Positions 42,004 to 58,200 of a DNA stretch of 64,000 nucleotides are shown here, piece after piece; position 1 is the first letter of the stretch; every line of letters starts with the position of its first letter. Source of the DNA: Lachnospiraceae bacterium (GTDB lineage: Bacteria > Bacillota > Clostridia > Lachnospirales > Lachnospiraceae). Location of the stretch: NCBI GenBank assembly GCA_028693165.1, contig JAQUVX010000022.1:1-64000 (forward strand). The letters run 5' to 3'. The translations under genes were made by a program, and so were the position numbers. The notes under the pieces were generated by a model. It ran no database searches. It saw only the letters and a program-made list of their open reading frames with translations, and was not told where the DNA came from.

Positions 42004-42748
42004 ATTGTCCAACCACCAACACTTTTACCGCAACAATCCGGGCGATTGGGTAATTATCAAATCAAGCTTGCTTGAATTGTCCAGGAATTGCTGGATTTGT
42101 GGGCAGGCATCCTTAATTTCAAGCAAGTATTGTCCAAACCCTCCCACTTTCGGTATTATGAGGGCGCAGATTGGGCAGCCGTGCACACCCAGATGCTAAA
42201 ATTGTCCAAAACAAATTTAGGTGCGAGCACTTTCGATAGTACAAGCAACCACTTTGGATCGCTACACACATCCAGACTGCAAAATTGTCCAAAACAAATT
42301 TAGGTGCGAGCACTTTCGATAGTACGAGCAACCACTTTGGATCGCTACACACATCCAGACTGCAAAATTGTCCAAAACAAATTTAGGTGCGAGCACTTTC
42401 GATAGTACGAGCAACCACTTTGGATCACTGCACACATCCAGATGACAAAATTGTCCAACCACCAACACTTTTACTGCAACAATCCGGACGATTGGATAAT
42501 TATCAAATCAAAATTGCGAGAATTGTCCAGGAATTGCTGGATTTGTGGGCAGGGGTCTTCAATTTCAAGCAAGTATTGTCCAAACCCTCCCACTTTCGGC
42601 ATTATGAGGGAGCAGATTGGGCAGCCGTGCACATCCAGGCAGCAAAATTGTCCAAAACAAATTAAGAGCAAGCATTTTCGATAGTACGAGCAAGCAGCAC
42701 AACCAAGCACATTGGACAGCTACACACAGCCAGACCACACAATTGTCC
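42004..42748. repeat. Composite repeat array with ATTGTCC anchors
   Basis: Eleven ATTGTCC words start at 42004, 42076, 42129, 42201, 42284, 42367, 42450, 42522, 42575, 42647 and 42742. The intervals are 72, 53, 72, 83, 83, 83, 72, 53, 72 and 95. The 197-bp set (72-53-72) occurs twice, 446 bp apart, nearly identical. The 83-bp unit occurs three times, and a 95-bp version, 12 bp longer, closes the array. Copy one of the set has a perfect 10-bp inverted repeat (42067-42076 with 42118-42127). No real gene is inside; open frames are repeat translations. Confidence 0.85.
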
Positions 42749-42754
42749 AACGGC

Positions 42755-42898
42755 GCAACATAAAGCGAAGCATAAAGCGAAACATAAACCGAAGCACAAA
42801 CCGAAACACAAACCGAAACACAAACCGAAACACAAACCACAACATAAACCGCAACATAAACCACAACACAAACCAAAACACAAACCGAAACACAATCC
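42755..42898. repeat. 12-bp tandem repeat, twelve copies
   Basis: Twelve consecutive units of 12 bp, consensus GAAACACAAACC with variants such as GCAACATAAACC. Purine-rich on the + strand. It begins 6 bp after the last ATTGTCC anchor and ends 30 bp before the oleate hydratase -35 box. Confidence 0.9.
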
Positions 42899-42992: not shown

Positions 42993-44768
42993 ATGTATTA
43001 TTCCAGTGGAAATTATGAGGCATTTGCAAGACCGCAAAAGCCCGAGGGTGTCGATGGCAAGTCGGCGTATATCGTCGGGTCTGGACTTGCGGCGCTGGCG
43101 GCGGCGTGTTTTCTGGTTCGTGACGGGCAGATGAAGGGCGAGCATGTTCACGTTCTGGAGAAAGATCCGATTCCGGGCGGTGCCTGCGACGGCTACCAGT
43201 ATGAAAATCTTGGATATATCATGCGCGGCGGGCGCGAGATGGACAATCACTTTGAGTGCATGTGGGACCTGTTTCGGTCGATCCCGTCCATTGAAACTGA
43301 GGGTATCAGCGTGCTCGATGAGTATTACTGGCTGAACAAAAAGGACCCCAACTTCTCTCTGATGCGCGCGACGGAGCGATGCGGCCAGGACGCACACACA
43401 GACAAGAAATTCGGCCTCTCCGATGAGGCTTCCATGGAGATCATGAAGCTCTTTTTCACCCCGGATGAGCAGCTCTACAACAAGCGCATCGACGAATTTT
43501 TTGACGATGCCGTCTTCGGCTCCAACTTCTGGCTTTACTGGCGCACGATGTTTGCCTTTGAAACCTGGCACAGCGCGCTTGAGATGAAGCGCTACATCAA
43601 ACGCTTCATTCACCATGTCGGAGGTCTGCCGGATTTCACCGCACTGCGCTTTACCAAATACAATCAGTACGAGTCCATGATCCTGCCGATGGTGGAGTAT
43701 TTGAAATCCTTTGGCGTCATCTTCCATTTCAGTACGCAGGTTGTGAACGTGGAATTTGAAATTCAGGCGGACAAGAAGGCCGCCCGGAAGATCCTGCTCC
43801 TGCATGAAGGTCAGGAGCAGACCATCGATCTGACGGACAATGACCTCGTCTTTATCACCAACGGCGGCTGTGTGGAGAATTCCTCCTACGGAAGCCAGAC
43901 CACACCGGCACCGTTTCAGACCGAGATCAAGGAAGGCGGCGGCTGGGATATGTGGCGCAAAATTGCGGCGCAGGATGCCTCCTTCGGTCACCCGGACAAA
44001 TTCTGCCACGACCCGGAGCAGTCCAACTGGATGAGCGCCACCACGACGACCCTGGACGACAAGATTCCTCCCTATATTCAGAAGATCTGCAAGCGAGATC
44101 CTTTCTCTGGCGGCGTTGTCACCGGCGGCATTGTCACCGCGAAGGATTCCGGCTGGCTTCTGAGCTGGACCGTCAACCGCCAGCCGCAGTTCCGCAGCCA
44201 GCCGAAGGGGCAGCTCGTCGTCTGGATCTATGGTCTGTTCACCGACCGCCCCGGTGATTTCATCAAAAAACCGATGCGTGAATGCACCGGCGAAGAGATC
44301 TGTATGGAATGGCTGTACCACATGGGCGTTCCGACAGACGAGATCGCCGGGATGGCCAGCCACAGCGCCAACACCATTCCCTGCATGATGCCATATGTCA
44401 CTGCATTTTTCATGCCGCGCGAGCTGGGCGACCGCCCGCAGATTGTCCCGGACAAAGCCGTCAACTTCGCATTCCTCGGACAGTTTGCCGAGACCGAACG
44501 CGACACGATCTTCACGACCGAGTATTCCATCCGAACCGGCATGGAAGCCGTCTACACCCTGCTGAACGTGGACCGCGGTGTCCCGGAGGTCTGGGGCAGC
44601 ACCTTTGATATCCGCGATCTCTTAAACTCTGTCGTCGCTCTGCGCGATGGCAAAAAGGTGACGGAGATGAAGCTTGGATTTGTACAGAAGATGGTATTAA
44701 ACCAGATTTTGAAGAAGCTTGAAGGAACCGACATCGATCTTTTGTTGAAGGAACATCGGCTGATCTGA
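42993..44768 (+). CDS. ohyA: Oleate hydratase (FAD-dependent fatty acid hydratase)
   Basis: Adds water to cis-9 double bonds of unsaturated fatty acids to give 10-hydroxy acids; known as the myosin-cross-reactive antigen family. The 591 residues match. The FAD Rossmann motif is IVGSGLAALAAACFL near residue 31, then EKDPIPGGACDGY. GGREMDNHFECMWDL and the loop MRATERCGQD are family-typical, as is FTKYNQYESMILPM. The start has AAAGGAG. It is monocistronic, with promoter and terminator of its own. It likely serves detoxification of host or dietary fatty acids (family knowledge). Confidence 0.95.
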   Translation: MYYSSGNYEAFARPQKPEGVDGKSAYIVGSGLAALAAACFLVRDGQMKGEHVHVLEKDPIPGGACDGYQYENLGYIMRGGREMDNHFECMWDLFRSIPSIETEGISVLDEYYWLNKKDPNFSLMRATERCGQDAHTDKKFGLSDEASMEIMKLFFTPDEQLYNKRIDEFFDDAVFGSNFWLYWRTMFAFETWHSALEMKRYIKRFIHHVGGLPDFTALRFTKYNQYESMILPMVEYLKSFGVIFHFSTQVVNVEFEIQADKKAARKILLLHEGQEQTIDLTDNDLVFITNGGCVENSSYGSQTTPAPFQTEIKEGGGWDMWRKIAAQDASFGHPDKFCHDPEQSNWMSATTTTLDDKIPPYIQKICKRDPFSGGVVTGGIVTAKDSGWLLSWTVNRQPQFRSQPKGQLVVWIYGLFTDRPGDFIKKPMRECTGEEICMEWLYHMGVPTDEIAGMASHSANTIPCMMPYVTAFFMPRELGDRPQIVPDKAVNFAFLGQFAETERDTIFTTEYSIRTGMEAVYTLLNVDRGVPEVWGSTFDIRDLLNSVVALRDGKKVTEMKLGFVQKMVLNQILKKLEGTDIDLLLKEHRLI

Positions 44769-44804: not shown

Positions 44805-44855
44805 TTCCCTGATTCCCCTCATTCATGAGGGGGATCAGGGGAATGTCCTTTTTTC
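44805..44855 (+). terminator. Terminator of oleate hydratase
   Basis: TTCCCTGATTCCCCTC pairs with GAGGGGGATCAGGGGAA, then TGTCC and six Ts. It overlaps the end of the convergent GT2 gene. Confidence 0.88.
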
Positions 44856-45797
44856 AATAAGATACCTCGGTCTTGCTTTTACCTCCATATATATTTTTCC
44901 AATATATTCTCCCAGAACTCCCAGACCGATCAGTTGAACTCCCCCTAAAAAGCAAATCAAGCTGGTCATACTGGCCCAGCCGGTGACGGTATTCCCCCCA
45001 AAAAAGCGAAGCACCGACCATACAACGCCGATAAAGCTCAAAAGTGCAACACAAAGCCCGATGCCTCCAATCATCCGCAGCGGCTTTACACTCAGGCTTG
45101 TGATGCCGTCAAACGCAAGGGAAAGCATTTTAGACAAGGGATAATGGCTGATTCCTGCTGCCCGCTCCCTGCGTTTATAATAAACGCTGGTGCTCTTGAA
45201 CCCAATTAGGGGAATCATACCCCGAAGATATAGATTCACCTCCTTAAATTCCGCAAGTTCCTGCAATACCCTCCCGGACAGCAGGCGGTAATCGGCATGG
45301 TTAAATACCACATCCGCCCCCATCCATTTCAAAATACGGTAAAAGCCTTCCGCCGTAAAGCGTTTGAAACGGGTATCCGTATCCCGGTTATCCCTTACCC
45401 CATATACCACTTCGCAGCCATTTTCGTATTCACTTATCATATCCTCCATTGCATGAACATCATCCTGCCCATCGCAGTCAATGGAAATCGAGATATCACA
45501 CTTTGTCAATGCCTCCATCAAGCCTGCCAGAACCGCACTCTGGTGTCCCCTGTTCCGGCTCTGGGAGATTCCTATAAAATGCTTATTATCTTTGGCAAAA
45601 TTGCTGATAAGCTGCCATGTATGATCCTTGCTCCCATCATCCACAAACAGAATTCTGCTGTCATCGCTGATTCTCTCAGCCTGTATGAGGTCATCTAATT
45701 CCTGCAAAAATACAGGGCCGGTCACCGGCAATACTTTTTCCTCATTGTAACAAGGAATCACAATATACAAAACCGGCTTGTTTGTCCTTTCTCTCAT
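44835..45797 (-). CDS. Family 2 glycosyltransferase (polyprenyl-phosphate sugar synthase type)
   Basis: Transfers a sugar from a nucleotide to undecaprenyl phosphate at the inner membrane face (DPM1/GtrB type). Start ATG 45797 with AGGAG 8 nt upstream; 320 residues. N-terminal GT-A domain: VIPCYNEEKVL, FVDDGSKDHTW, and SIDCDGQDD for the metal site. Two membrane helices come at about 230-255 and 265-290. Last gene of the glycosylation block; its ribosome site overlaps the upstream stop. The donor sugar (mannose or glucose) cannot be told from sequence. Confidence 0.9.
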   Translation of the reverse strand: MRERTNKPVLYIVIPCYNEEKVLPVTGPVFLQELDDLIQAERISDDSRILFVDDGSKDHTWQLISNFAKDNKHFIGISQSRNRGHQSAVLAGLMEALTKCDISISIDCDGQDDVHAMEDMISEYENGCEVVYGVRDNRDTDTRFKRFTAEGFYRILKWMGADVVFNHADYRLLSGRVLQELAEFKEVNLYLRGMIPLIGFKSTSVYYKRRERAAGISHYPLSKMLSLAFDGITSLSVKPLRMIGGIGLCVALLSFIGVVWSVLRFFGGNTVTGWASMTSLICFLGGVQLIGLGVLGEYIGKIYMEVKARPRYLIEKRTFP

Positions 45798-45802
45798 ATC
45801 AA

Positions 45803-47365
45803 TCACTCCTGTTTTTCTTCATGAAATTCCTGTTCCGTATTGACATTCCATACATTGTCCTTTTCCTTTTTTCCATGGAGAATATTGTCCACCGCCTCAA
45901 ACGAAGTTGCCATAGAATGATCCATGTTATTATACCGGTGCTGTCCATTGCGCCCCACGCAGTACAGATTTTCAAATTCATCCAGATAATGAATCAGCTG
46001 ATGAATCTCACTGTAGGTATCAAAATAAGCCGGATATGCCTTCTTGACCTTAACACAGTGAAAATCCAGTACGTCCATTTCCCCATCAATCACCCCCATC
46101 TGGGTCAGCTCCTGGATTCCCTTATGCGCCCATTCCTCCTCGCTCATACGCCAGAACGTATCCCCCTCAGAGCAAAAGTATTCCAGGCCAATCCACACTG
46201 TCTCCTCCGGCTTTGCCACCAAATAAGGCGACCAGTTGTTAAATATTTGAATCCGGCCCAGCCTTACCCCCGTATCCTGAATGTAAATCCAGCAATCCGG
46301 CACAAGATGATTTAAGGTTTTCAGTTTTGTCTCATTTTTAAGCTTCATTTTTTTTAATAAAATACCTACTGTAACAAAATCCCGATACGGAAGCCCCTCT
46401 GCAATCCTTTTTATGGAATCCGGCACAGCCTCCATTCCCCGTATCAAATCCTTCAACGGCATGGAGGATATCACATAATCCGCCTGCTCGGTGCAGATTC
46501 CTTCCGGTGTTTCATAGGTAACGGAAGTAATTCGTCCATGCGTTCCACGCACCCCGGTGACCCGACAGTTTTTCCTGATACTGCCGCCCATCCGTTCCAT
46601 ATCCTCCGCAGCGATTTCCCACAATTGACCCGGGCCGTATTTGGGATAGGAGAATTGTTCAATCAAAGAAGTTTCTATATGTTCCCTTTTACCTCCAGGC
46701 AGCAGCTTGCTTACCACATCTTTGAAAATGGCTGTGATTGATAAGCCTTTCACTCTCTGAGCGCCCCAGTCCGCTGATATTTCCCCTGGATGTCTTCCCC
46801 AAAGCTTTTCTGTGTAGCCCTCAAAAAACATGGAATACAAAACTCTGCCAAACCGGTTAATATAAAAGTCCTCCAGAGAGCATTCCTTTCTTTTGTGAAC
46901 GACCGCCGCCAGATAGCCAAAGCCAGCTCTTACCGTCACCAGAAATCCCATATTCCGTATGGTATTCACATTCAGCTTTACCGGATAATCAAAAAATTTC
47001 TTTTTATAATAAATTCTGGACACCCGTTTTCTGGTCAGCATGACCCGGTCCGCCTGGTCAGGATCCGGTCCGCCTTCAGCAAGCTCCACCTCACGCGAAA
47101 GAAGCTTATCGTCAAAAGAAGGGCTTCCCTGAAGTGGCATCAGCTGCTTCCACCAGTCCATGACCCGCCGGTCCTTTGAAAAAAATCGATGACCGCCAAT
47201 ATCCATGCGGTTTCCCTTGTATTTTTCGGTTCGTGAAATTCCACCAAGCTGATCCGTTTCCTCCAATACAATTACCTCATATTGGTCGGAATGCTTCGCC
47301 AGCTCATAGCCGGCCGTAATTCCTGCCGGCCCGGCTCCAATGATGATTACCTTCTCCTTTTTCAT
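45803..47365 (-). CDS. FAD-dependent oxidoreductase related to UDP-galactopyranose mutase
   Basis: Flavoprotein of 520 residues. The FAD site is [18 protein letters not shown], then [23 protein letters not shown] follows, as in mutase/protoporphyrinogen-oxidase-like proteins. [20 protein letters not shown] and [16 protein letters not shown] near the end support a sugar mutase or desaturase role. It is about 130 residues longer than Glf. Its neighbours are glycosyltransferases on both sides, so it may make a furanose or modified sugar donor. Exact reaction unknown. Confidence 0.8.
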
Positions 47366-47389
47366 GTGCTCCCCCTTTTCATGTACAGT

Positions 47390-48853
47390 TTATCGAATGA
47401 ACAGAAACATCAGACAGGAAAAAACACTGTATATCATCGTTTCTGCGACAATCACCCTGCGCATCCATTCTCTTTTTTCAGCGGCAAATTCCTTTCCCAC
47501 CAGAAGGGCCCCCAGAACCCCCAATACCAGCACATATCGAAAATCCATGCTGCAGCCAAAGGGATACTGATAATAGAAATAAACCGTACTTGACAAAACG
47601 ATTCCAAAAGCGATAGCTGCAAATGTTCCGTAAACATCCGTTTTTCTCCTGCGAAGCTGGTGGATGATGGAAATTACCACAATAACCGACAAAATCAGCC
47701 CGGAAAGCATCAGAATCACAGGAATCCAGTCTGAAATTTCATAGGAAAATTCTCCAAAAAGTGAGGATTTTATCAAATACACCGGAAGATTATAGTCACT
47801 CCACGCATCCCCATATGGGCTGTGCAAAAGGTTCGGAATATCCGGGAGAATAAATCGCTGCACCAGAGAATGATCTCCTGTGTAGATTTTTGATTCCTCT
47901 GATATACGTAGCACATACCCCAGCGTCTGACCAAATAATCTATAATTGCGCAGGCTGTACCATAGTCCCAGCGGGAAGCTGATACATCCAAATGCCAGAT
48001 ATTTTCCAAAAATTGCTCCCAGCTCATGTGATTTTCTGTGGTTCCACAGTACAAGTGCAAATACACCCGCTGTAAAAATTGCCATAATCCCACAGGAAAT
48101 TTTTGTCATCATGCCCAGTCCATAGATAACTGCCAGAACCAGAATATTTTTCCAGCTCTGCTTTTCATGCCAACGGCAGGTATATAAAAATGCCGCTGTC
48201 ATAAAAAATGCTGTCTGGGCATCACCAACTACACTTCCGCCTGTCAGATAAAAACCCGGCAAAAAAGCAATCAGGGCGATTGAAATCACCTTTGCTGTTT
48301 TGTCCAGCTTCAATATTTCCCCAAGTTTTCCGGCTGCAAGCAGAGTAAAGCAGGAAAAGCAGCAGGACACAACCTTTGCGGCATCAACCAGAAAATAGGG
48401 TTCCGTACACCGCAAGGCAGAGTTGATGATTCTCGATGCATAGCTTCCCAGTATGTAAAAAAGTGGCTGCTGGTAATACTGCAGATCATTACTGTTCGGA
48501 AGCTTCCCCGTCTCAATCAGTGTCAGGATATACCCCGCATGACCACCTCCATTTGACGTAAGGTCTCGTAAATCATGCTCTCGCACCTCACATCCTGTAT
48601 AGAGCATGTAGCCTATACGCATAGCAAATCCAAAAAGAATGATGCTTTTATAAAGCAGTTCCAGACTCCATTTTTTTTGATGATACATAAACATATGATA
48701 TTGAATGAGGGCTATCCCAAAGACCAGCATCCCCCCCTGTATCCATACTGGATGCTGATAGAGCTTTAATTTTCTGGACAGCATATAAAGCAATGTAATT
48801 CCAATCACCAAAGCAATGGCCTGACATATGGTTCTTCTCTCTCCTTTACTCAT
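47390..48853 (-). CDS. GT-C-type membrane glycosyltransferase
   Basis: Membrane protein of 487 residues with about eleven helices. The first extracytoplasmic loop carries TGCEVREHDLRDLTSNGGGHAG, with the acidic residues seen in lipid-linked sugar transferases, and QYYQQPLFYILG, a PMT/ArnT-like loop. Start follows AAGGAGGG. It lies 9 bp after the PMT-type gene. Probably uses an undecaprenyl-phosphate sugar as donor outside the membrane. Acceptor unknown. Confidence 0.75.
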   Translation of the reverse strand: MSKGERRTICQAIALVIGITLLYMLSRKLKLYQHPVWIQGGMLVFGIALIQYHMFMYHQKKWSLELLYKSIILFGFAMRIGYMLYTGCEVREHDLRDLTSNGGGHAGYILTLIETGKLPNSNDLQYYQQPLFYILGSYASRIINSALRCTEPYFLVDAAKVVSCCFSCFTLLAAGKLGEILKLDKTAKVISIALIAFLPGFYLTGGSVVGDAQTAFFMTAAFLYTCRWHEKQSWKNILVLAVIYGLGMMTKISCGIMAIFTAGVFALVLWNHRKSHELGAIFGKYLAFGCISFPLGLWYSLRNYRLFGQTLGYVLRISEESKIYTGDHSLVQRFILPDIPNLLHSPYGDAWSDYNLPVYLIKSSLFGEFSYEISDWIPVILMLSGLILSVIVVISIIHQLRRRKTDVYGTFAAIAFGIVLSSTVYFYYQYPFGCSMDFRYVLVLGVLGALLVGKEFAAEKREWMRRVIVAETMIYSVFSCLMFLFIR

Positions 48854-48862
48854 GCGCCCTCC

Positions 48863-51268
48863 TTAGACAAACCGCCAGCGAGACAGCCATCGAAGTCCCT
48901 GGCAAATATAGTTGGTAATAACCGGATACCCGGAGGTAATGGGGTAAAAGAGCAAAAATGCTCCAAAGGCTGCCCCAAGAAACCATACACCAGCCCTCTT
49001 ATATTTCCAGGAGATATCTGCAAAGGACTGCACCAGCATAAGCGGCAGAATCAATGCACAGCCAAAATACTGGTAGATAAAAACTGTCCGATGAACAAAC
49101 AGCCATGGAAGCAGCATGGACAAGTAGCTTATACACAGATAGCCAGACTTTTCCTGTCCTTTTCCCCTCCAAAGATAAAAGTTATGGAATAATGCCACAA
49201 TTCCACCCCACCAGATAATCGGATTCCCAAAGGTCGCAACAACACTTACCAGTTCCCCTTCTGTATGAGTCAGAGCATCCAGCAAAGGCACCTTTACCCA
49301 TAGCCACTCAAACCACTCTGAAGAATACGGATGGTCAGCTACCGTTGTCTTATGGTATCCCAGCATGAACTTTGAGTTTTCAACTGCAATCTGAAGCAGA
49401 TTGTTTGATGCATCTCCTCTCAGATACGGAATATAAGAAAGAACGTATATGGTCAGCGGGAGAATGATAAAGGAAAGGAAACAGATCCCAAATAAACGGA
49501 GCAGATACCCGGATGCCGCCTTTATCCTTTCCGGAGAATGGTACACACTCAGCAGATGGAGAAAAAGGCAAACCGCTATGCCGCATGCCGCATAAACGGC
49601 CGTCCATTTCGTTGCAATTCCGCACCCAACCACCAATCCACACAGAAGGAAAGCTCCCGTCTCACGCCACCCCAGCAGTTTTTTGGAAAGCACCGCATTT
49701 GCCTCTCCTTTCACCTGCGTGAATAGCTGCATGGAATGCCGGTTCAGCAGCCCGAGGCACCTGTAAAACAGATAGAACATGAGTACAATAAAGAACGCCA
49801 CATATATATCAATGGTCGCAATCCTGGAAAGTGTCTGATGCATAAAATCCAGATTTACCAGCATCGCGGCCAAACATGCCCCTTTCCTCTTCCCTGTCAG
49901 CTGTCTTGAAAACAAATAGATCATCGGTACCAAAAGTACCCCCAGCACTCCGCCCACAAAGCGCCAGCCAAACGGTGTCATTCCGAATGCCGAAATTCCT
50001 ATTCCCATTAAAATCTTCCCCATGGGCGGATGGCTGATTTCATAAATAGGCAGTCCATGAAGCATCTCGTAGGCGGTTCGTGCATGATATACCTCGTCAA
50101 ACATAGTGCCATAATAATAGGTAGAGAACTGCGGATACAACTCCTGCTCATCAAAGACAGCCGGATACTGATTGGCATTTACCGGCAATATCGGATTCCC
50201 TTCCTCATCCAAAATAACCATCTCGTAAATATAGGAATCACTGTTTTCCATGCTCACCACGCCAAGTCTGGTGAGCGGACGGTTTACCTCCACCTCGTTC
50301 CACGTAAATACCGACTGAATATTCTGCTTCGATGCAAATACATCCCACTGATTTACGGACGCATTGAAGCTGGAAAAAGAGAACTTTCTTGCCGATACCG
50401 GTCCAAGAAAAATTTTAATTTTAGAAATGGATACCTCATGGTCAAAATCAAGTACCATCTGTCTGCTGTCTGTTGTCTGCTGGAATTTCATTCCGGTCTG
50501 AGGGGATGAGAAGCTTCCCAGTCTCCCAAAAACCAGGAATGTGCTGATTGCTGTAAGGATCAGCAGGTACAAAATATCCCTTTTTCCAAAGGGCTCCGAT
50601 GTATGCAGCTGATTCTCTCTGCACTGCTTTTTTTCTTCACCCTGTTCTGCTGTCCGGCTCTGATTGACGGATTTCTGAGTTCCTTTATAAAGATACCAAA
50701 GCCCTCCCACTACAGACGCGGACACCAACAATACCATAAGCATCCATAAAACAGGATACTGATTGTCACCTGCCTGGCACTGCACCAGCGATTGGTCTAA
50801 AACATCCTCCGACAGCATAATTCCATATGCTCCCATTGAAAATAATGCATATATGTAGAAAAGAACCGTATGCTGGTACGATTTCCCTGTTTTTTTCACT
50901 TTTTGCACCAGCCAGACACCTGCCGGCAATAACAGCCAAATCATAACCGCCCTTGCTGTCCTTCCGGAAAACACTGCGGCCAGAACAGCCGGATTCCATA
51001 TATAGAGAGAAAGTATCTGGTCTTTTCTTTCCCTGTCCTTTTTCACCAAAAGATACAGATAGAAAAAAGACAGTGCGTCTATCAGCAGACAAATCCCCAC
51101 TGCCTCACCATGTGTCTCACCCATACAATAGAGAACAAAACGAGTCAACCCATAACCTCCTAATGGGAAAAAAGCTTTTTTCCTCTCAGGCCCTTGATTG
51201 ATTGTTAATCCATAGATTACAAAAAAGATACTACAGGACAATCCGATCGCCCAATACACTGAAATCAT
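48863..51268 (-). CDS. PMT-type (GT39) glycosyltransferase with extracellular domain
   Basis: Polyprenyl-phosphate-sugar dependent transferase, 801 residues. The PMT loop holds the catalytic-type acidic pair in MFDEVYHARTAYEML (near residue 392) and ISHPPMGKILMG. About a dozen helices. An N-terminal membrane part (about 200 residues) is followed by an insert of some 150 residues that looks like a galactose-binding or discoidin-like fold (DFDHEVSISKIKIFLG). Start has AAGGAG. PMTs transfer mannose to Ser/Thr of secreted proteins; the Ser/Thr-rich protein 115 bp upstream is the obvious possible acceptor (inference). Confidence 0.85.
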   Translation of the reverse strand: MISVYWAIGLSCSIFFVIYGLTINQGPERKKAFFPLGGYGLTRFVLYCMGETHGEAVGICLLIDALSFFYLYLLVKKDRERKDQILSLYIWNPAVLAAVFSGRTARAVMIWLLLPAGVWLVQKVKKTGKSYQHTVLFYIYALFSMGAYGIMLSEDVLDQSLVQCQAGDNQYPVLWMLMVLLVSASVVGGLWYLYKGTQKSVNQSRTAEQGEEKKQCRENQLHTSEPFGKRDILYLLILTAISTFLVFGRLGSFSSPQTGMKFQQTTDSRQMVLDFDHEVSISKIKIFLGPVSARKFSFSSFNASVNQWDVFASKQNIQSVFTWNEVEVNRPLTRLGVVSMENSDSYIYEMVILDEEGNPILPVNANQYPAVFDEQELYPQFSTYYYGTMFDEVYHARTAYEMLHGLPIYEISHPPMGKILMGIGISAFGMTPFGWRFVGGVLGVLLVPMIYLFSRQLTGKRKGACLAAMLVNLDFMHQTLSRIATIDIYVAFFIVLMFYLFYRCLGLLNRHSMQLFTQVKGEANAVLSKKLLGWRETGAFLLCGLVVGCGIATKWTAVYAACGIAVCLFLHLLSVYHSPERIKAASGYLLRLFGICFLSFIILPLTIYVLSYIPYLRGDASNNLLQIAVENSKFMLGYHKTTVADHPYSSEWFEWLWVKVPLLDALTHTEGELVSVVATFGNPIIWWGGIVALFHNFYLWRGKGQEKSGYLCISYLSMLLPWLFVHRTVFIYQYFGCALILPLMLVQSFADISWKYKRAGVWFLGAAFGAFLLFYPITSGYPVITNYICQGLRWLSRWRFV

Positions 51269-51309
51269 CTGTTCTCCTTATTTTCCGCTATTGTTTTCTC
51301 ATAGCAAGA

Positions 51310-51344
51310 ATACAGGGAACCTTATTGATGCAGATTCCCTGTAT
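51310..51344 (-). terminator. Hairpin between the mucin-like protein and the PMT gene
   Basis: ATACAGGGAA pairs with TTCCCTGTAT around a 15-nt loop. On the minus strand it lies after the wall-binding protein gene; the following bases are only moderately T-rich, so it may let part of the transcripts through. Confidence 0.5.
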
Positions 51345-51383
51345 TGTAGCAAACAGCAATGCCGATATTATGTATAAAACTTT

Positions 51384-52739
51384 TTACTTATCCTTTGTTA
51401 CAGACTGTGGAAGATATGATGTTTCTGTAATGACTGTTGGTGCTTCCGTTGTCTTTGGTGCTGCTGATGACATGCCTTCTGGTAGTTCTGATGTTGTCAC
51501 CGGATCCAGAGATTCTGTCCCTTGCGGTGATTCTGTCCCTTGCGGTGTTTCCGTCCCTTGCGGTGTTTCCGTCCCTTGCGGTGTTTCTGTCCCTTGCGGT
51601 GTTTCCGTCCCTTGCGGCGTTTCCGTCCCTTGCGGTCTTTCCGTCTCTTGCGGTCTTTCCGTCTCTTGCGGTCTTTCCGTCTCTTGCGGTCTTTCCGTCT
51701 CTTGCGGTCTTTCCGTCTCTTGCGGTCTTTCCGTCTCTTGCGGTCTTTCCGTCTCTTGCGGTCTTTCTGTCACTTCCGGCGACACTTCCGGTGTCGCTGA
51801 CGGTTCCACGGTCGGTGACACTTCCGGTGTCGCCGACGGTTCCACGGTCGGCGATGCTTCCGGTGTCGCTGACGGTTCCACGGTCGGTGACACTTCCGGT
51901 GTCGCTGACGGTTCCACGGTCGGCGATACTTCCGGTGTCGCTGACGGTTCCACGGTCGGCGATACTTCCGGTGTCGCTGACGGTTCCACGGTCGGCGATA
52001 CTTCCGGTGTCGCTGACGGTTCCACGGTCGGTGTCACTTCCGGTGTCGCTGACGGTTCCACGGTCGGTGATACTTCTGGTGACACAGATGGTGTTTCTGT
52101 CTCTTCTGGCGCCTCTGTTGTCTCTTCTGGCGCCTCTGTTGTCTCTTCTGGCGCCTCTGTTGTCTCTTCTGGTGCCTCCGTTGTCTCTACCGGCGCCTCC
52201 GTTGTCTCTTCTGGTGCCTCCGTTGTTGGTGGTACATAATAATTATCATCATCATCATTATCAGATGACGATGTCGTCTTTTGTATATTAATTTCTTGAA
52301 TAGTTCCTGCCACATCTACGGAATAGCTCACATCTGGCTTAGGCTTTCTGCTGCCAACTGCAACTCCATTCTCATCAAACTGGTAAAGTTCGTTTCCTAT
52401 CCAGGTGCTGCCTGTTTCCATAGCTCCTGAGTTGTTAAAATAGTAAACGCTTCCATTAATCTCGGCAGCTCCGGTAATCATTGCACCTGACGCACTGAGG
52501 AAATACCTGTTCAAACTATCCTTCAGCCATCCTGTCTGCATGATACCCTTATCGTTGAAGAAGTACCACTTCCCGCTAATCTGTGCCCATCCGGTTGCAT
52601 TGCGCCCTTCCGTTACATATGTCCATAATCCGTCCTGAGTTTGGTTCCAGTCAGCAAAGGCCGGCATGGAAAAAGAACTTCCAGCAACAAAAACACTCAA
52701 ACAAAATGCACACGTCTTCTTTAAACTGTATTTCTTCAT
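51384..52739 (-). CDS. Secreted cell-wall-binding protein with Ser/Thr/Pro-rich tandem repeats
   Basis: Protein of 451 residues; start ATG 52739 with AGAGGAG upstream. Signal peptide 1-30 ending SFSMPAFA. Residues 31-130 hold four to five choline-binding-type repeats (GWAQISGKWYFFNDKG, MQTGWLKDSLNRYF and so on). A short acidic stretch (SSSDNDDDD) follows. The rest is low complexity: TEAPEET-type units, nine units of VSPTVEPSATPE type, seven of ERPQET and six of ETPQGT. It has no sortase motif. The dense Thr/Ser/Pro repeats resemble a mucin stalk. It heads the co-directional glycosylation genes. Confidence 0.85.
   Translation of the reverse strand: MKKYSLKKTCAFCLSVFVAGSSFSMPAFADWNQTQDGLWTYVTEGRNATGWAQISGKWYFFNDKGIMQTGWLKDSLNRYFLSASGAMITGAAEINGSVYYFNNSGAMETGSTWIGNELYQFDENGVAVGSRKPKPDVSYSVDVAGTIQEINIQKTTSSSDNDDDDNYYVPPTTEAPEETTEAPVETTEAPEETTEAPEETTEAPEETTEAPEETETPSVSPEVSPTVEPSATPEVTPTVEPSATPEVSPTVEPSATPEVSPTVEPSATPEVSPTVEPSATPEVSPTVEPSATPEASPTVEPSATPEVSPTVEPSATPEVSPEVTERPQETERPQETERPQETERPQETERPQETERPQETERPQETERPQGTETPQGTETPQGTETPQGTETPQGTETPQGTESPQGTESLDPVTTSELPEGMSSAAPKTTEAPTVITETSYLPQSVTKDK
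51520..52235 (-). repeat. Minisatellite coding the Ser/Thr/Pro repeats
   Basis: Nested arrays of 18-bp units (ERPQET and ETPQGT), 36-bp units (VSPTVEPSATPE) and TEAPEET-coding 21-bp units. Neighbouring units are nearly identical at DNA level, so the number of copies may vary between strains. All unit lengths are multiples of three, so changes would keep the frame. Confidence 0.85.
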
Positions 52740-53075
52740 TCTCATCTCCTCTTTCCTCTTTATTTTGCAAAAATTGTTACGCATAGCCATCTGTTGTTCG
52801 CGCCATATCCCGGTAGACCATACGCCTGCTCTCTGATTGCATCAAAGTTTTTCCGCTTTTCTGAAAGCATCTTGGCGCTGAACACAACTATGAACATAAC
52901 TATACATAAAAAGTATAGTCCTTTTTTGCAGTCAAAACCATTTTCTGCACCAAACGGCATTTTTCGAGCACAAATCGGGATTTCCAAGTCTTGTAGATGC
53001 TTTTTTAGTGTGATATACTATGAACGCTTAGCGAAATTTCTCACGAGCTACATCTACATAAACGGAGGACTCATC
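52740..53075. promoter_or_regulatory. Divergent control region with promoter for the two-component system
   Basis: TTGTAG (52991-52996), 17-bp spacer and TATACT (53014-53019) precede the response-regulator gene. A hairpin ACTATAC-ATAAAAA-GTATAGT followed by CCTTTTTT lies at 52899-52927 and may be a terminator or operator. No gene is convincing here. Confidence 0.6.
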
Positions 53076-53804
53076 ATGCATATTGCAGTTTGTGATGACA
53101 ATACAGACGAGCTTGCCCACATTGCCTCCCTGCTGGAACATTACCGGAGGGAATACAACAGCTCAATTACATACGAAACCTTTTACAGCGCCACCGAGCT
53201 TTTGGAGACGATGAAAACGCGGCGGTTTGACCTGTTGTTTTTGGACATCCTCATGCCTGGAGTTAACGGCATTGATGCCGCCCGGGAAATCCGATGCACC
53301 GATGAGGATATTCCGATTTTCTTTCTTACCGCATCCCGTGAATTTGCGATAGAAAGCTATCGGGTAAATGCTGAGGACTACATGATGAAGCCTGCCAAAG
53401 AAGAGGAGATTTTCTCAGCTCTTGACAAACAGCTCGCCCGGCTTTCGGAAAACTCAGCGTATCTGATACTAAAAATTACAGACGGCATTGTAAAGCTTCC
53501 CCTTTCCCAAATCGTCTTTGTGGAAGTCCTCAATCACACGGTGTACTTCACTCTCAAAAACGGAGCCGTACGGGAAGTGACCGGCTCTCTCTCCGATTAT
53601 GAAAGCACGCTGCTGACTGACCCCGCCTTTTACAAGCCACACCGCTCCTATGTGGTGAATCTGGAGCAGGTCGTCGAGCTTAGCAAAAAAGGGTTTTTTA
53701 CCACCGTAGGAAAAACCGTGCCGATAGCAAGAGATACTTTTTCAAAAACAAAAGCTGCCTACATGAAATATATGATGGGCGGAAACGGAGGCTGTGGGAT
53801 ATGA
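53076..53804 (+). CDS. LytTR-type response regulator (AgrA-like)
   Basis: Regulator of 242 residues. Receiver domain 1-120: CDDNTDE at the N-terminus, phosphorylated D57 in FLDILMPG, and conserved lysine in YMMKPA. LytTR DNA-binding domain from about 140 (ITDGIVKLPLSQIVFVEVLN, FYKPHRSYVVN). Start ATG 53076 with CGGAGGA. It is followed by a GHKL kinase with a 4-bp overlap. LytTR regulators often control wall and secreted proteins, and such proteins flank this pair on both sides. No agrB or agrD-like gene is near. Confidence 0.9.
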   Translation: MHIAVCDDNTDELAHIASLLEHYRREYNSSITYETFYSATELLETMKTRRFDLLFLDILMPGVNGIDAAREIRCTDEDIPIFFLTASREFAIESYRVNAEDYMMKPAKEEEIFSALDKQLARLSENSAYLILKITDGIVKLPLSQIVFVEVLNHTVYFTLKNGAVREVTGSLSDYESTLLTDPAFYKPHRSYVVNLEQVVELSKKGFFTTVGKTVPIARDTFSKTKAAYMKYMMGGNGGCGI

Positions 53805-55090
53805 GTATGATTACTTCTATGATGTTGATTATTTACGGTATTATCATCATGTCCATGCTGCTTGATTTACACCCGAACAAGCTACCGCCTGGAAAGCGGG
53901 GCGCCGCAATTCTGTACACCTTTGTCATTGTTGCAGGCAACGGCCTTGCAATGAAGCTTTTAGGGCAGCCGCTTTATGGGAAATACTATTTGTTTCTGGT
54001 GCAGATCCCCCTCTATACAGGCTTCGCTATCTTTTCATGCTACAAAGGGGTAAAGCTGTTTTTTGTACTGCTTTCTATCATTGTGCTGGCCGCACCGCCC
54101 ATTATGTGCGTTACGGCGCTGCGCACCTTTTGTCAGATTGATATGGCTACATCCCTGGTTGTATTTTTCATCTGCTATGTGCTCATGATAGCGTTTGTCT
54201 ATAAAATCCTCAAACCGGATTTTAATTATATGCTTGAAAACTGTGAAAGCCGCCATTTTTGGCTGTTCTGCCTCATCCCGATACTGGACTATGTGTACTC
54301 CTTTGTCCGCACGGGTTATAATTTTGTGCAGCATTTTTCACCGGAGGGCTACTGGATTCGCCAGATTCCCACCATGATTGTATTTGCCTCTTATATCCTG
54401 CTGGTGCGTGTATTTCGATCAACCCGGGAGAACCAACAGCTTCAGAATGAAACAAATATGATGCAAATGCAGATGGAAGCAGCACGGCTTCGTCTTAACG
54501 AACTTAAAAACGCACAGGAACAGGCAGTCATATACCGCCACGATATGCGGCACCATCTGTCTCTCCTTGCCGGATTCGTGGCCGAGGGCGATATGCAGAA
54601 AATCAAGAACTATCTTGCTGGCGCGGAAATCGATATGGATGCGGTTACGCCCACACACTACTGCGATAACGAAACGATTAATCTAATTTTATCCTTCTTT
54701 GACAAACAGGCGAAAAAAGAGGGCGTCAAGCTATGCACGGAGGTCAGACTGCCGAATGAACTTTCCATCAGCGACACGGAGCTTTGCACCCTGCTTTCCA
54801 ACGCTTTGGAAAACGCCATTACGGCCGCTGCACAGGTGGAGGATGAAACGCTGCGCAAGGTTTATATTCGCGCGCTGATTCATGACGGCAAGCTGCTCAT
54901 CTCCACAGAAAATGCCTATATCGGCACCATTGAAATGGATGGCGAGCTTCCGATTTCCAAGAATACGGAGGCCGGACATGGTTTCGGTGTTAAAAGCATA
55001 GTGGCTATCACAGAACACCACCATGGACTGTATTCCTTTGAAAAAGAGAACGGGGTGTTCGCTCTGCACCTCATGCTGCCGCTCTCATAA
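53801..55090 (+). CDS. GHKL-domain sensor histidine kinase (AgrC-like)
   Basis: Membrane kinase, 429 residues. Six or seven helices in the first 205 residues, then a coiled linker, and the phosphoacceptor H247 in YRHDMRHHLSLLAG. The ATPase part has NALENAI (N box) and GHGFGVKSI (G box). This is the AgrC/ComD architecture that senses peptides in other Firmicutes. It is co-translated with the LytTR regulator. The ligand is unknown because no peptide gene can be recognised next to it. Confidence 0.9.
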   Translation: MSMITSMMLIIYGIIIMSMLLDLHPNKLPPGKRGAAILYTFVIVAGNGLAMKLLGQPLYGKYYLFLVQIPLYTGFAIFSCYKGVKLFFVLLSIIVLAAPPIMCVTALRTFCQIDMATSLVVFFICYVLMIAFVYKILKPDFNYMLENCESRHFWLFCLIPILDYVYSFVRTGYNFVQHFSPEGYWIRQIPTMIVFASYILLVRVFRSTRENQQLQNETNMMQMQMEAARLRLNELKNAQEQAVIYRHDMRHHLSLLAGFVAEGDMQKIKNYLAGAEIDMDAVTPTHYCDNETINLILSFFDKQAKKEGVKLCTEVRLPNELSISDTELCTLLSNALENAITAAAQVEDETLRKVYIRALIHDGKLLISTENAYIGTIEMDGELPISKNTEAGHGFGVKSIVAITEHHHGLYSFEKENGVFALHLMLPLS

Positions 55091-55235: not shown

Positions 55236-58200
55236 TTATTTCTTCGGCACATTCAAATTCTGACCAATCCGTAAATCACTTTCATTAATACCCGGATTGG
55301 CGGCCCTTAAATCTACTATGCTGCAGCCATATCGGTTTGCGATCTTCCAGAGATTATCGCCCTGCTGAATCACATGTGTATTCTCTGACTTTTGCTCTGC
55401 CTGTGCTGCATTGCCTGCCTGTGCCGCCTCTTCTGCCGGTACTGCCTGGCCTGCCTTGTCTGCCGGGATCAGCACGTAGGTTGCGGCATTCTTAACTGCA
55501 AGTGTCACATAACCCTGCGCGTCTACCTGGCGTGGCTCATTTTCTACGCGTTCCAGTTTACCGGTCACGTTGTTGTAGCTGTACACATATACCTTGCTTC
55601 CAGCCGTAATTCCACTTGTGATACCGTCGGCTCGCTGTACGATGGACGAGATATGGATGCTGGCTGTCGTCGGCAGCATTCCGGAGTGACGGAAATTCAG
55701 TACAAGTCCATCCGTGCTCACTGCCTGAGCTGCACTGCGTAATGCTTTATCCGTTTCGGTCAATGCTGCGGTCGGTGTTACGTCAATCGCAAGATTTATG
55801 TCCGTCAATGCTGTCTGGGAGCCCTTCAACGCCGCTCCGTCCACAGTCCAGGAGAATTGCTCCACACCGAGTTCATTTTTCACTGCTACGGTAATGCTCT
55901 TTCCACTCTCGCGCGTCGCTTCCAGAACTGCCTTTTCCAGGATCAGTCCTCCGATCCGTACATCTGCGGATTTCGTCACTGCCGATGGAATCACCACGTT
56001 CATCTCTACTGTCGAGATCTGTGGATTCTGAAGCTGCGGCGTCATCGATGCAGAGGATACCGGTATTGTAACGTTCATCGGATTTTCTGCTGTTGCACCT
56101 GAAGTCTTTGCTGCCTGGAGCACGACATTGCTGTCTGCCTGAACCGTCATGGAAGCCTTATTTCCTTCTACCGATACCTGTGGTTCTTTAACCGAGATCT
56201 GGGTGTCTCTGGATATCACATTGCCTGCTGCATCCTTAATAATCTCGACATCTGCTGTGGTTCCCGCCGAACCCTCGATCTTCACTTCATCCACGGTTCC
56301 GCCATTTTCTGTCGGAGTTGTGGTAATGGTTCCTACATTAACGGTTCCGCTGCCTGCTGTGCTTCCGCCTGCGGTACTGCCGCCGGATGAGCTTCCGCCG
56401 CCACCGCCGCCACCGCCGCCGCTGGACTTTTTAGCAAAGGTCGCTGTCAGCTTAACTGTGCCAGCCGGCATAAGGAAGGTGGTTTCCTGCGCTTTCACGT
56501 CGGCCAAAAGTGCTGCCTGCTCTGATGCGCTCCAATCCTTGAACTGATATCCGCCTGCTGCTATTGCTTTCACTGTCACCGTTTCTCCCGGATAGAAGAT
56601 TCCGGTACCATCTCCTCCTATGATCTCCACGGTGCCATATTCTGCTGCTGTAATTACCTTGTAGCCTGCTCTCCATTTTGCATAGAGCGTCACGTCTGTC
56701 GTCACCAGATCGCTGAATGCATAAGCCCGGGTCAATGCCTGATCCAGATACCATCCATCAAATGCATAGTATGCAGTTCCGTCGGTTTCCTTCATCGGAT
56801 CGGTTGGTTTCTTCGCCAGTTCTCCGGCTGTCAGCTCCTGCGCCTCTACGGACGCACCGCCGTTGCTGTCAAATGTTACCTTCACGGTCGGGTAGCTGAT
56901 GGTGACCAGATACTCTTTGGTTGAATCATCCTCTGCGGTCACTGTGTATTTCACCGGTGTCGTTCTGCTGTTGGTAAAATCTACCGCCTTACCGCTCTCC
57001 GGGTTCACCGAAGCGTTGCTGTCTGTAGCTTTGATGGTCGGAGCAATGGTCTTTAATTCCGTACCGTAAGGCACAATGAGAGAAATCTTACCTTCTTTTT
57101 CCTCAAGCACCGTATCGCCCACCTGCTTCTCTACGGTAAATTCTGTAATCTGTTTGGTCCGGCTTTCGCCCACCGCTTTCACAAGAACGTCTCCTGCTGC
57201 CGGCAAATCCTTCGCAAATTTGATGGATGCCGTATCTTTCTCCTTGTCCGGAGTATAAGTATAATCCGTTCCATCTGTAAGAGTGTGGCTGATGCCGTCT
57301 TCGGTTACGGTAATCGTCACCTTCCTTTGTACACTGTAGCCTTCTTCTGCTGTCAAAGTCACTTCAAGCGGCTGCTTCAGCTCCATCTTTTCCGGCTGCT
57401 GATCGGCTGTCATATAGGTCAGATCGTAATCCACCTTATACGATGGAATCTGTACGGTCACCTCATATTCCTGAGTGTCACCATTTTCTGCTGTCACGGT
57501 ATAAATCACCGGATTTTTCACAGAATCACTAAAGTCTGACACTGCTCCGGAAATCGGACTAACCGTTGCATTGCTGTTTGACGCAAGCGTCACTACCGGC
57601 TTTAATTCTGCCAGTTTGGTTTGATAAGGCATTTCAATCGCGATGGTGTGATTCTCCTGGTCTAAGACCGTGTCACCCACCTGATTGTCAATGGCAAACT
57701 CTGTGATGCTCTTTTCGATGTTCAGTGCCTTCAAGGTAATCTGAACCGCTCCTGTCACCTGTTTGATGGTAATCGTTCCTGTAGCCCGGTCTTTGTCCAC
57801 CGTATACGTATAATCGGTTCCGGCCACCAAAACTTTCTCCGTCAGTTTTAAATCCTTCATGGTCACTTTCAGGTTATCGGTGTCCGTCTGAGGCGGTATG
57901 GTAAAGCCTGTTTTCGCTGTCAAAACTACGTTCAGTTCTTCATGCAGGTTTACCTTCTCCTTGCGGGCGGCATTTGCCACATTGGTCAGCGTATAGCCTA
58001 CCCCGTAGGACGGAATCTTTACGGTTACATCATATTTCTGAGTGCTGCCGTCTTCTGCGGTTACGGTGTAGACTACCGGAGTCTTCTCCGAGTTACTAAA
58101 GTCTGTTACCGCTCCGCTGGCCGGTACCACCTTGGCATCCGGACTCGGAGTTACCGTTGGCTTAATCGTCTTTAAATCTGTACCATGAGGCATCTGCACC

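Follow-up and report, generated by a model that had tools for sequence, protein, structure and literature searches.

The window analysed here is a stretch of 64,000 nucleotides from a Lachnospiraceae bacterium (GenBank assembly GCA_028693165.1, 3.60 Mb in 42 contigs; contig JAQUVX010000022.1, positions 1 to 64,000), and it carries a cassette of five minus-strand genes that we read, with a probability of about 0.72, as a Pgf-like system that O-glycosylates secreted Ser/Thr/Pro-rich proteins bound to the wall. In order, the genes encode a choline-binding-repeat protein proposed as the acceptor, a PMT-type glycosyltransferase (PMT), a second glycosyltransferase of the GT-C type (GT-C2), a flavoprotein resembling UDP-galactopyranose mutases (UGMs) and a family 2 glycosyltransferase (GT2). 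A first-pass annotation of this DNA had already placed all five at these positions and on this strand. Its proposal of an O-glycosylation cassette beside a plausible acceptor is supported by two observations: Ser/Thr/Pro-rich secreted proteins recur beside PMTs of the same clade, and one relative (L171) keeps the gene order, with a wall-binding repeat protein directly upstream of the PMT. The arrangement is known elsewhere; the candidate ring-changing enzyme is unusual and may make the coating chemically distinctive. Protein O-glycosylation in Lachnospiraceae of the gut can be tested on this cassette; our searches of the open-access literature listed no described system of that kind for these bacteria.

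Enzymes and proposed acceptor

The repeat protein lies in an open reading frame at 51384-52790 (minus strand, as for all cassette features below), and its likely start at 52739, which is preceded by a purine-rich stretch and opens a signal peptide (MKKYSLKK...), gives a protein of 451 residues (51384..52739). Its Pfam matches are to the choline-binding repeats Choline_bind_3 and Choline_bind_1. The Ser/Thr/Pro-rich repeat region of about 300 residues noted in the first-pass annotation corresponds to a tail of 297 residues (51387..52277), encoded by three tandem arrays with units of 18, 36 and 21 bp. The tail contains 28 Ser, 61 Thr, 54 Pro and 62 Glu, with Ser and Thr together making up 30%; the label mucin-like is fair, but the tail is also Glu-rich.

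The PMT (48863..51268, 801 residues) matches PF02366 (PMT, 53.5 bits) and PF16192 (PMT_4TMC, 44.8 bits), both above cut-off, and its Asp391-Glu392 pair (50093..50098) is invariant in all 20 sequences of an alignment of PMT homologues. We take this pair to be the acidic motif expected in the first extracellular PMT loop, presumably with the catalytic role that it has in yeast PMTs. The AlphaFold2 model of the PMT (confidence score, pLDDT, of 81) has as its seven best Foldseek matches chains of fungal Pmt4 and yeast Pmt1-Pmt2 (E 4e-15 to 3e-8), followed by archaeal oligosaccharyltransferase and ArnT. Residues about 260-353 (50210..50491) are predicted to form a beta-sandwich, for which Foldseek alone gives weak matches to CBM32 modules (E of 0.008 or poorer); a Pfam search of this insert returned no match, so the domain carries no Pfam name, and some 220 residues with extra helices precede it at lower model confidence. 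By domain, motif and predicted fold the PMT is a GT39-type enzyme, and the extra extracellular domain that had been ascribed to it is borne out as the predicted CBM32-like insert.

The two further glycosyltransferases are also as first described. GT-C2 (47390..48853, 487 residues) has a PMT_2/PMT match in Pfam, and its model (pLDDT 93) shows a GT-C fold that matched oligosaccharyltransferases, Pmt4, the arabinosyltransferase AftA and ArnT. GT2 (44835..45806), which has C-terminal membrane segments, matches Glycos_transf_2 in Pfam and, among NCBIfam models, best the PgfS of streptococci (NF047588) and then the ArnC type, so that family matches point to a PgfS/ArnC-like polyprenyl-phosphate-sugar synthase. 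The gaps between the four enzyme genes are tight (9, 24 and -4 bp), and the repeat gene, lying upstream, ends 115 bp before the PMT gene.

Gene content, predicted folds, conserved residues and linkage are what we observe; every chemical step is one that we infer. Judging from its family, GT2 would act in the cytoplasm, transferring the sugar of a nucleotide donor to undecaprenyl phosphate, the lipid-linked sugar would be flipped by a carrier that was not seen in the cassette, and the PMT would move the flipped sugar, outside the membrane, to Ser or Thr of the secreted acceptor, for which the choline-binding-repeat neighbour is the first candidate by genomic linkage. GT-C2 may extend the glycan using another lipid-linked sugar, and the flavoprotein may supply GT-C2 with a ring-contracted (furanose) nucleotide sugar, a step suggested by the conserved mutase residues and by the co-occurrence of the flavoprotein with GT-C2. 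The repeats would hold the acceptor in the wall, where it would display a glycosylated, protease-resistant stalk.

Linkage of one PMT clade to Ser/Thr/Pro-rich secreted proteins

The loci sampled comprised 35 stretches, 80 named loci (the best 80 of 574 relatives, mostly Lachnospiraceae with some Oscillospiraceae) and 20 more. Counting the window, a PMT was called at 116 loci (L168 had none and was dropped), and 105 were kept once 11 had been removed as at least 80% identical to a kept one, among them L096, L148, L162 and L189. In a quick midpoint-rooted tree of the 105 PMTs, that of the window falls in a clade of 17 with support of 0.997 (a node of 16 has 0.62), and a more careful midpoint-rooted tree of 35 gives 100/100 for 12 clade members; the clade was first drawn with these 12 and widened to 17 after the larger tree. 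Genes within three of the PMT were counted as near and those five or more away as far, leaving out distance four, open reading frames under 100 residues and the cassette enzymes themselves. Genes were called by a longest-open-reading-frame script and signal peptides by a simple hydrophobicity rule, which misses at least one secreted protein (L192).

Proteins flagged as Ser/Thr/Pro-rich and secreted are encoded within three genes of the PMT at 8 of the 17 clade loci, and by gene the clade yields 9 of 67 near against 0 of 125 far (p = 5e-5), or 8 of 64 against 0 of 87 with the window removed (p = 8e-4). Given this recurrence and the contrast between near and far, the neighbour is unlikely to be there by chance; the clade also differs from the other loci (p = 5.5e-4). 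Sorted by length class, the near and far counts are 6 of 28 versus 0 of 77 for full-length loci (p = 2e-4), 9 of 259 versus 4 of 295 for long ones (p = 0.09) and 4 of 188 versus 1 of 217 for short ones (p = 0.14), the last class including L097, whose length would fit the full type. Within three genes of the PMT, the flavoprotein is found at 5, GT-C2 at 6 and GT2 at 5 of the 17 clade loci (one of the six GT-C2 enzymes, in L179, being only 25% identical), and at 0, 0 and 9, respectively, of the 88 non-clade loci.

Several observations pull the other way. Non-clade PMTs have a flagged neighbour at 8 of 88 loci, the flagged genes being 10 of 408 near and 5 of 464 far (p = 0.10), and 9 of the 17 clade loci have none; at 5 of these 9, fewer than three genes were called to one side. 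The Ser/Thr-rich threshold was fixed after the first loci had been viewed; across alternative thresholds and distances the 8 full-length loci give p from 1e-4 to 0.19, with stricter settings giving 0.003 to 0.19. In the window's own genome 19 regions comprise 333 genes, 6 of them flagged, a rate that exceeds the clade's far rate of 0 of 125, some of these regions having been chosen on contigs known for choline-binding-repeat proteins; at that rate about 1 flagged gene would be expected among 67 near genes, and 9 were observed. By score, the cassette lies outside two curated equivalogs, GT2 reaching 224 of 500 bits for PgfS (NF047588) and the PMT 76 of 800 for the actinobacterial protein O-mannosyltransferase (NF058602). 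GT-C2, with or without the flavoprotein, also occurs in many loci that have neither a PMT nor a Ser/Thr-rich neighbour. The near/far comparison rejects a chance neighbour for the PMT clade and does not reject it for PMTs in general. The search for this gene order in relatives that the first-pass annotation had suggested speaks for its proposal in the PMT clade, where 8 of the 17 loci have such a neighbour; other PMTs show no clear linkage, and the GT2 homologue loci are not linked to such proteins.

These observations bear on a different account, raised in the first-pass annotation itself, in which teichoic acid or a wall polysaccharide is the polymer that the enzymes decorate, by way of GT2, a flippase and GT-C enzymes, and the neighbour is a coincidence. 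Such a role would fit the clade loci without a flagged neighbour, the 80 of 88 non-clade PMT loci in the same position, and the GT2 homologues (63-70% identity in the loci fetched) and GT-C2/flavoprotein pairs found in loci with neither PMT nor Ser/Thr-rich proteins. We nevertheless regard it as improbable, and for the PMT clade a coincidental neighbour is what the counts reject. The structures nearest to the PMT are protein O-mannosyltransferases, Ser/Thr-rich secreted proteins of separate families recur beside the clade PMT, and the cassette is flanked by unrelated genes: in the window an oleate hydratase gene (42993-44768) and a LytTR two-component system, and in L056 genes for MgtE, an antiporter, GH28 and dihydroorotate dehydrogenase, with polysaccharide genes not among them. 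Wide occurrence of the enzymes without a Ser/Thr-rich secreted neighbour, together with action on a wall polysaccharide, had been named in advance as evidence against protein glycosylation, and the first of these is what we find for the loci of GT-C2, the flavoprotein and GT2. Neither GT-C2 without a PMT (19 loci; 1 of 94 near and 0 of 119 far genes flagged) nor GT2 (20 loci fetched from among the best GT2 matches, of which 18 were usable, with 1 of 93 near and 0 of 110 far genes flagged) serves as a marker of a protein-glycosylation system, and both were set aside.

Compared by BLAST over the sequence outside their repeats, the flagged neighbours of the clade PMTs belong to at least three unrelated families. 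The first comprises the window and L171, with choline-binding repeats. Members of the second, L056, L095 and L092(+1), combine a short domain with a Thr-rich stretch and carry a membrane anchor at the C-terminus, and the gene order is flavoprotein, PMT, GT-C2, acceptor in L056 and L095 and GT2, PMT, acceptor in L092. The third (L118, L146 and L185) has a different secreted domain, its repeats being of the PSTTEG, SEAPVDP or PSYAPS type, the SEAPVDP letters being taken from L148, the near-duplicate of L146, and GT2 lies alongside in L118 and L146. L092(-3) is a fourth type with a single member. Taken as a neighbourhood rule, the pairing of a PMT of this clade with a Ser/Thr/Pro-rich secreted protein can be used to predict acceptors in other species. 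Records from both Lachnospiraceae and Oscillospiraceae are found in the clade, a mixture suggestive of transfer between the families, with the caution that many of the records are metagenome bins.

Two side observations concern other PMT neighbours. In a Ruminococcus bin, what reads as a cellulase-like enzyme with a C-terminal dockerin-like segment (L093:2862-5438) adjoins a PMT of the same clade, a possible link between the clade and cellulosome glycosylation. Outside the clade, L079:7410-9077 (with a FecR domain) and L180:7351-8724 (similar by eye) encode secreted proteins with Ser/Thr-rich tails; their PMTs form a separate, well-supported pair, one of them in the window's own genus.

Among 397 genomes of the family (the window's own included; taken as the same set throughout), the PMT has matches in 42 and GT-C2 in 46, both counts including a few that are weak or partial. 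At E 1e-100 the flavoprotein is matched in 71 of the genomes, and at E 1e-70 GT2 is matched in 145. GT-C2 and the flavoprotein occur together in 39 of the 46 GT-C2 genomes (p = 3e-27), the PMT and GT-C2 in 15 genomes (p = 1e-5) and the PMT and the flavoprotein in 16 (p = 8e-4), all p values being uncorrected for kinship. Within the window's genus a PMT match is present in 1 of 23 other genomes, at 36% identity. The flavoprotein adjoins GT2 in G153 (L226), as it does in the window.

The flavoprotein and a possible furanose

The flavoprotein (45803..47365, 520 residues) matches Amino_oxidase in Pfam and PRK07208/NF005549 at 799 bits against a cut-off of 587. By sequence it is a relative of the UDP-galactopyranose mutases (best E 1e-13), the matched entries being, as we take them, those of T. 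cruzi and A. fumigatus. In an alignment to structure 4dsg, the T. cruzi enzyme (TcUGM) residues His62, Arg176, Tyr317, Arg327, Tyr395, Arg423, Tyr429 and Asn433 have equivalents in the flavoprotein, where H59, R204, Y361, R371, Y444, R472, Y478 and N480 are invariant in 12 of 12 homologues; chain index and published numbering were related by a deduced offset of 3, and a counterpart of TcUGM Asn201 was not established. The roles of the TcUGM active-site residues are those given in part of PMC4192007. On this resemblance the flavoprotein is likely a ring mutase, and a furanose glycan is plausible. The likeness to the eukaryotic UGMs extends to sequence and active site; unlike them, the flavoprotein sits in a separate curated family (PRK07208, NF005549), and its substrate is putative.

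The flavoprotein could instead be a flavin enzyme of some other kind, such as an oxidoreductase that works on the glycan or on the carrier of the glycan. The curated models lean that way, as the GLF Pfam domain (PF03275) has no match in the flavoprotein, TIGR00031 gives 43 bits of the 304 required, and the curated name of NF005549 is hypothetical protein; so does the presence of a canonical mutase in the same genome. We think this rather unlikely, given that the residues invariant in all 12 homologues are the UGM phosphate-binding and flavin-site residues and that the flavoprotein co-occurs with a GT-C enzyme. The canonical mutase is a full-length Glf at G000:C27:40327-40947 (L261), which rules out the flavoprotein as the genome's sole UGM-type enzyme and counts against the furanose reading; because of it, the substrate of the flavoprotein may not be UDP-galactose and the sugar may be other than galactofuranose. 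A partial second Glf copy lies about 4 kb away, and the contig (C27) also carries several choline-binding-repeat matches and a GT2 paralogue. The furanose suggested in the first-pass annotation thus keeps the conserved UGM catalytic residues in its favour and has the canonical Glf against it. Two further observations speak against the full five-gene scheme: the GT-C2/flavoprotein region is shrunk to a fused remnant in L171, and the flavoprotein of G451 (L056) has an in-frame stop, so GT-C2 and the flavoprotein look dispensable.

Ring mutation is nevertheless the role that we prefer for the flavoprotein. We speculate, and hold only tentatively, that the clade PMT, GT-C2 and a UGM-like mutase of their own build a furanose O-glycan on exchangeable mucin-like wall proteins. 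The hosts would be gut Lachnospiraceae and Oscillospiraceae and the acceptors would be encoded in the same cassette, a picture to which we attach the same modest weight. No bacterial furanose O-glycan system made up of a PMT, a GT-C enzyme and a mutase was listed in our searches of the open-access literature. Galactofuranose is a constituent of cellulosome glycans of C. thermocellum or B. cellulosolvens, and our literature search gave no paper containing both terms. Should the flavoprotein produce a furanose donor, the host would meet a glycan foreign to it.

Known systems, substrate scope and surrounding genes

The closest layout is that of Streptococcus mutans, where, according to the parts of PMC5856776 consulted, cnm is co-transcribed with pgfS (a GT2), pgfM1 (PMT-2 type) and pgfE (a UDP-glucose epimerase) despite a putative terminator, pgfM2 lies downstream, and loss of any of the four pgf genes changes the modification of Cnm. 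Like cnm-pgfS-pgfM1-pgfE-pgfM2, the window places a surface acceptor, a GT2, two PMT-like GT-C enzymes and a nucleotide-sugar enzyme side by side, provided that the flavoprotein, by its presumed function, is counted as the last of these. Unlike Pgf, the cassette has a UGM-like flavoprotein in place of a PgfE-type UDP-sugar epimerase, its PMT carries a CBM32-like insert, its acceptor is a choline-binding-repeat protein and its GT2 scores under the PgfS cut-off.

A second precedent is the GT39 enzyme Cbes_1864 of Caldicellulosiruptor bescii, which has a carbohydrate-binding-like domain in loop 1 and a gene near celA, the gene of its Thr-Pro-linked acceptor CelA, and whose deletion abolishes detectable glycosylation of secreted enzymes with Thr-Pro linkers (part of PMC6151902). 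Neither a flavoprotein nor a second GT-C enzyme is named for that cluster in the parts of PMC6151902 consulted. As far as those parts show, the window PMT resembles Cbes_1864 as a GT39 with a carbohydrate-binding-like domain encoded near its acceptor (in the window a proposed one), and differs in length (801 residues against 556) and in acceptor, those of C. bescii being cellulases. In actinobacteria, PMT together with a polyprenyl-phosphate-mannose synthase acts on secreted Ser/Thr/Pro-rich proteins. The pairing of GT39 and GT2, proposed for such proteins in the window too, is the shared feature (in part PMC12757957); unlike the actinobacterial enzyme, the window PMT reaches under a tenth of the equivalog cut-off, and its sugar may not be mannose. 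The clostridial precedent, with galactose as the reported sugar, is a stronger analogy than the mannose one drawn in the first-pass annotation. Clostridial linkers are described as carrying mostly galactose (part of PMC5939190), and for the sugar of clostridial GT39 galactose is reported and mannose argued, evidence that a review calls conflicting (sections of PMC12757957). The cassette bears on this dispute.

How many proteins such a system would serve is a separate matter of scope. A general O-glycosylation system that modifies several secreted proteins, including the neighbour, is compatible with our reading; we give it about an even chance. The flagged genes elsewhere in the genome, which include L196 and L198, point to it, as does L192, and the earlier claim of a system dedicated to this one protein stays a conjecture, since further Ser/Thr-rich secreted proteins are encoded at other places in the genome. 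From the portions of the two studies consulted, the C. bescii deletion strips glycostain from several exoproteins and Pgf of S. mutans modifies both Cnm and WapA. Linkage to the adjacent gene suggests, on the other hand, that this protein matters most. L192, L196 and L198, on contigs C27, C28 and C42, are further Ser/Thr-rich choline-binding-repeat proteins, L196 being carboxypeptidase-like as we read its sequence, and all three are possible further substrates.

The gap between the repeat gene and the PMT gene contains a hairpin (51309..51345) with a 14-bp stem and without a clear T-run; the 131-base stretch that was folded has a score of z = -2.8. A terminator scan did not list this hairpin, being blind to loops over 8, so the gap was folded separately and operon membership was not judged from the scan alone. 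The hairpin is possibly an attenuator or processing site, and by analogy with cnm and its putative terminator, co-transcription despite it could hold here.

Divergent from the repeat-protein gene, a LytTR response regulator and a GHKL kinase are encoded at 53088-55090 (plus strand), a pair that possibly regulates the cassette. A search for LytTR sites upstream of the repeat gene found no exact direct repeats of 8-12 bases within 40 bases; a 12-bp tandem repeat seen by eye at 52880-52903 (minus strand), imperfect in that the copies agree at 11 of 12 bases, is possibly a regulator site. On the other flank, an 83-bp tandem repeat (3.3 copies, 42184-42458) and a 12-bp tandem repeat (11.6 copies, 42757-42895) lie upstream of the oleate hydratase gene. 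Beyond the kinase, at 55236-63998 (minus strand), lies the gene for a protein of more than 2900 residues that comes close to the window edge or runs past it. This protein has a LysM domain at its C-terminus, five stretches of DUF5018, Flg_new repeats and a weak match to GLUG.

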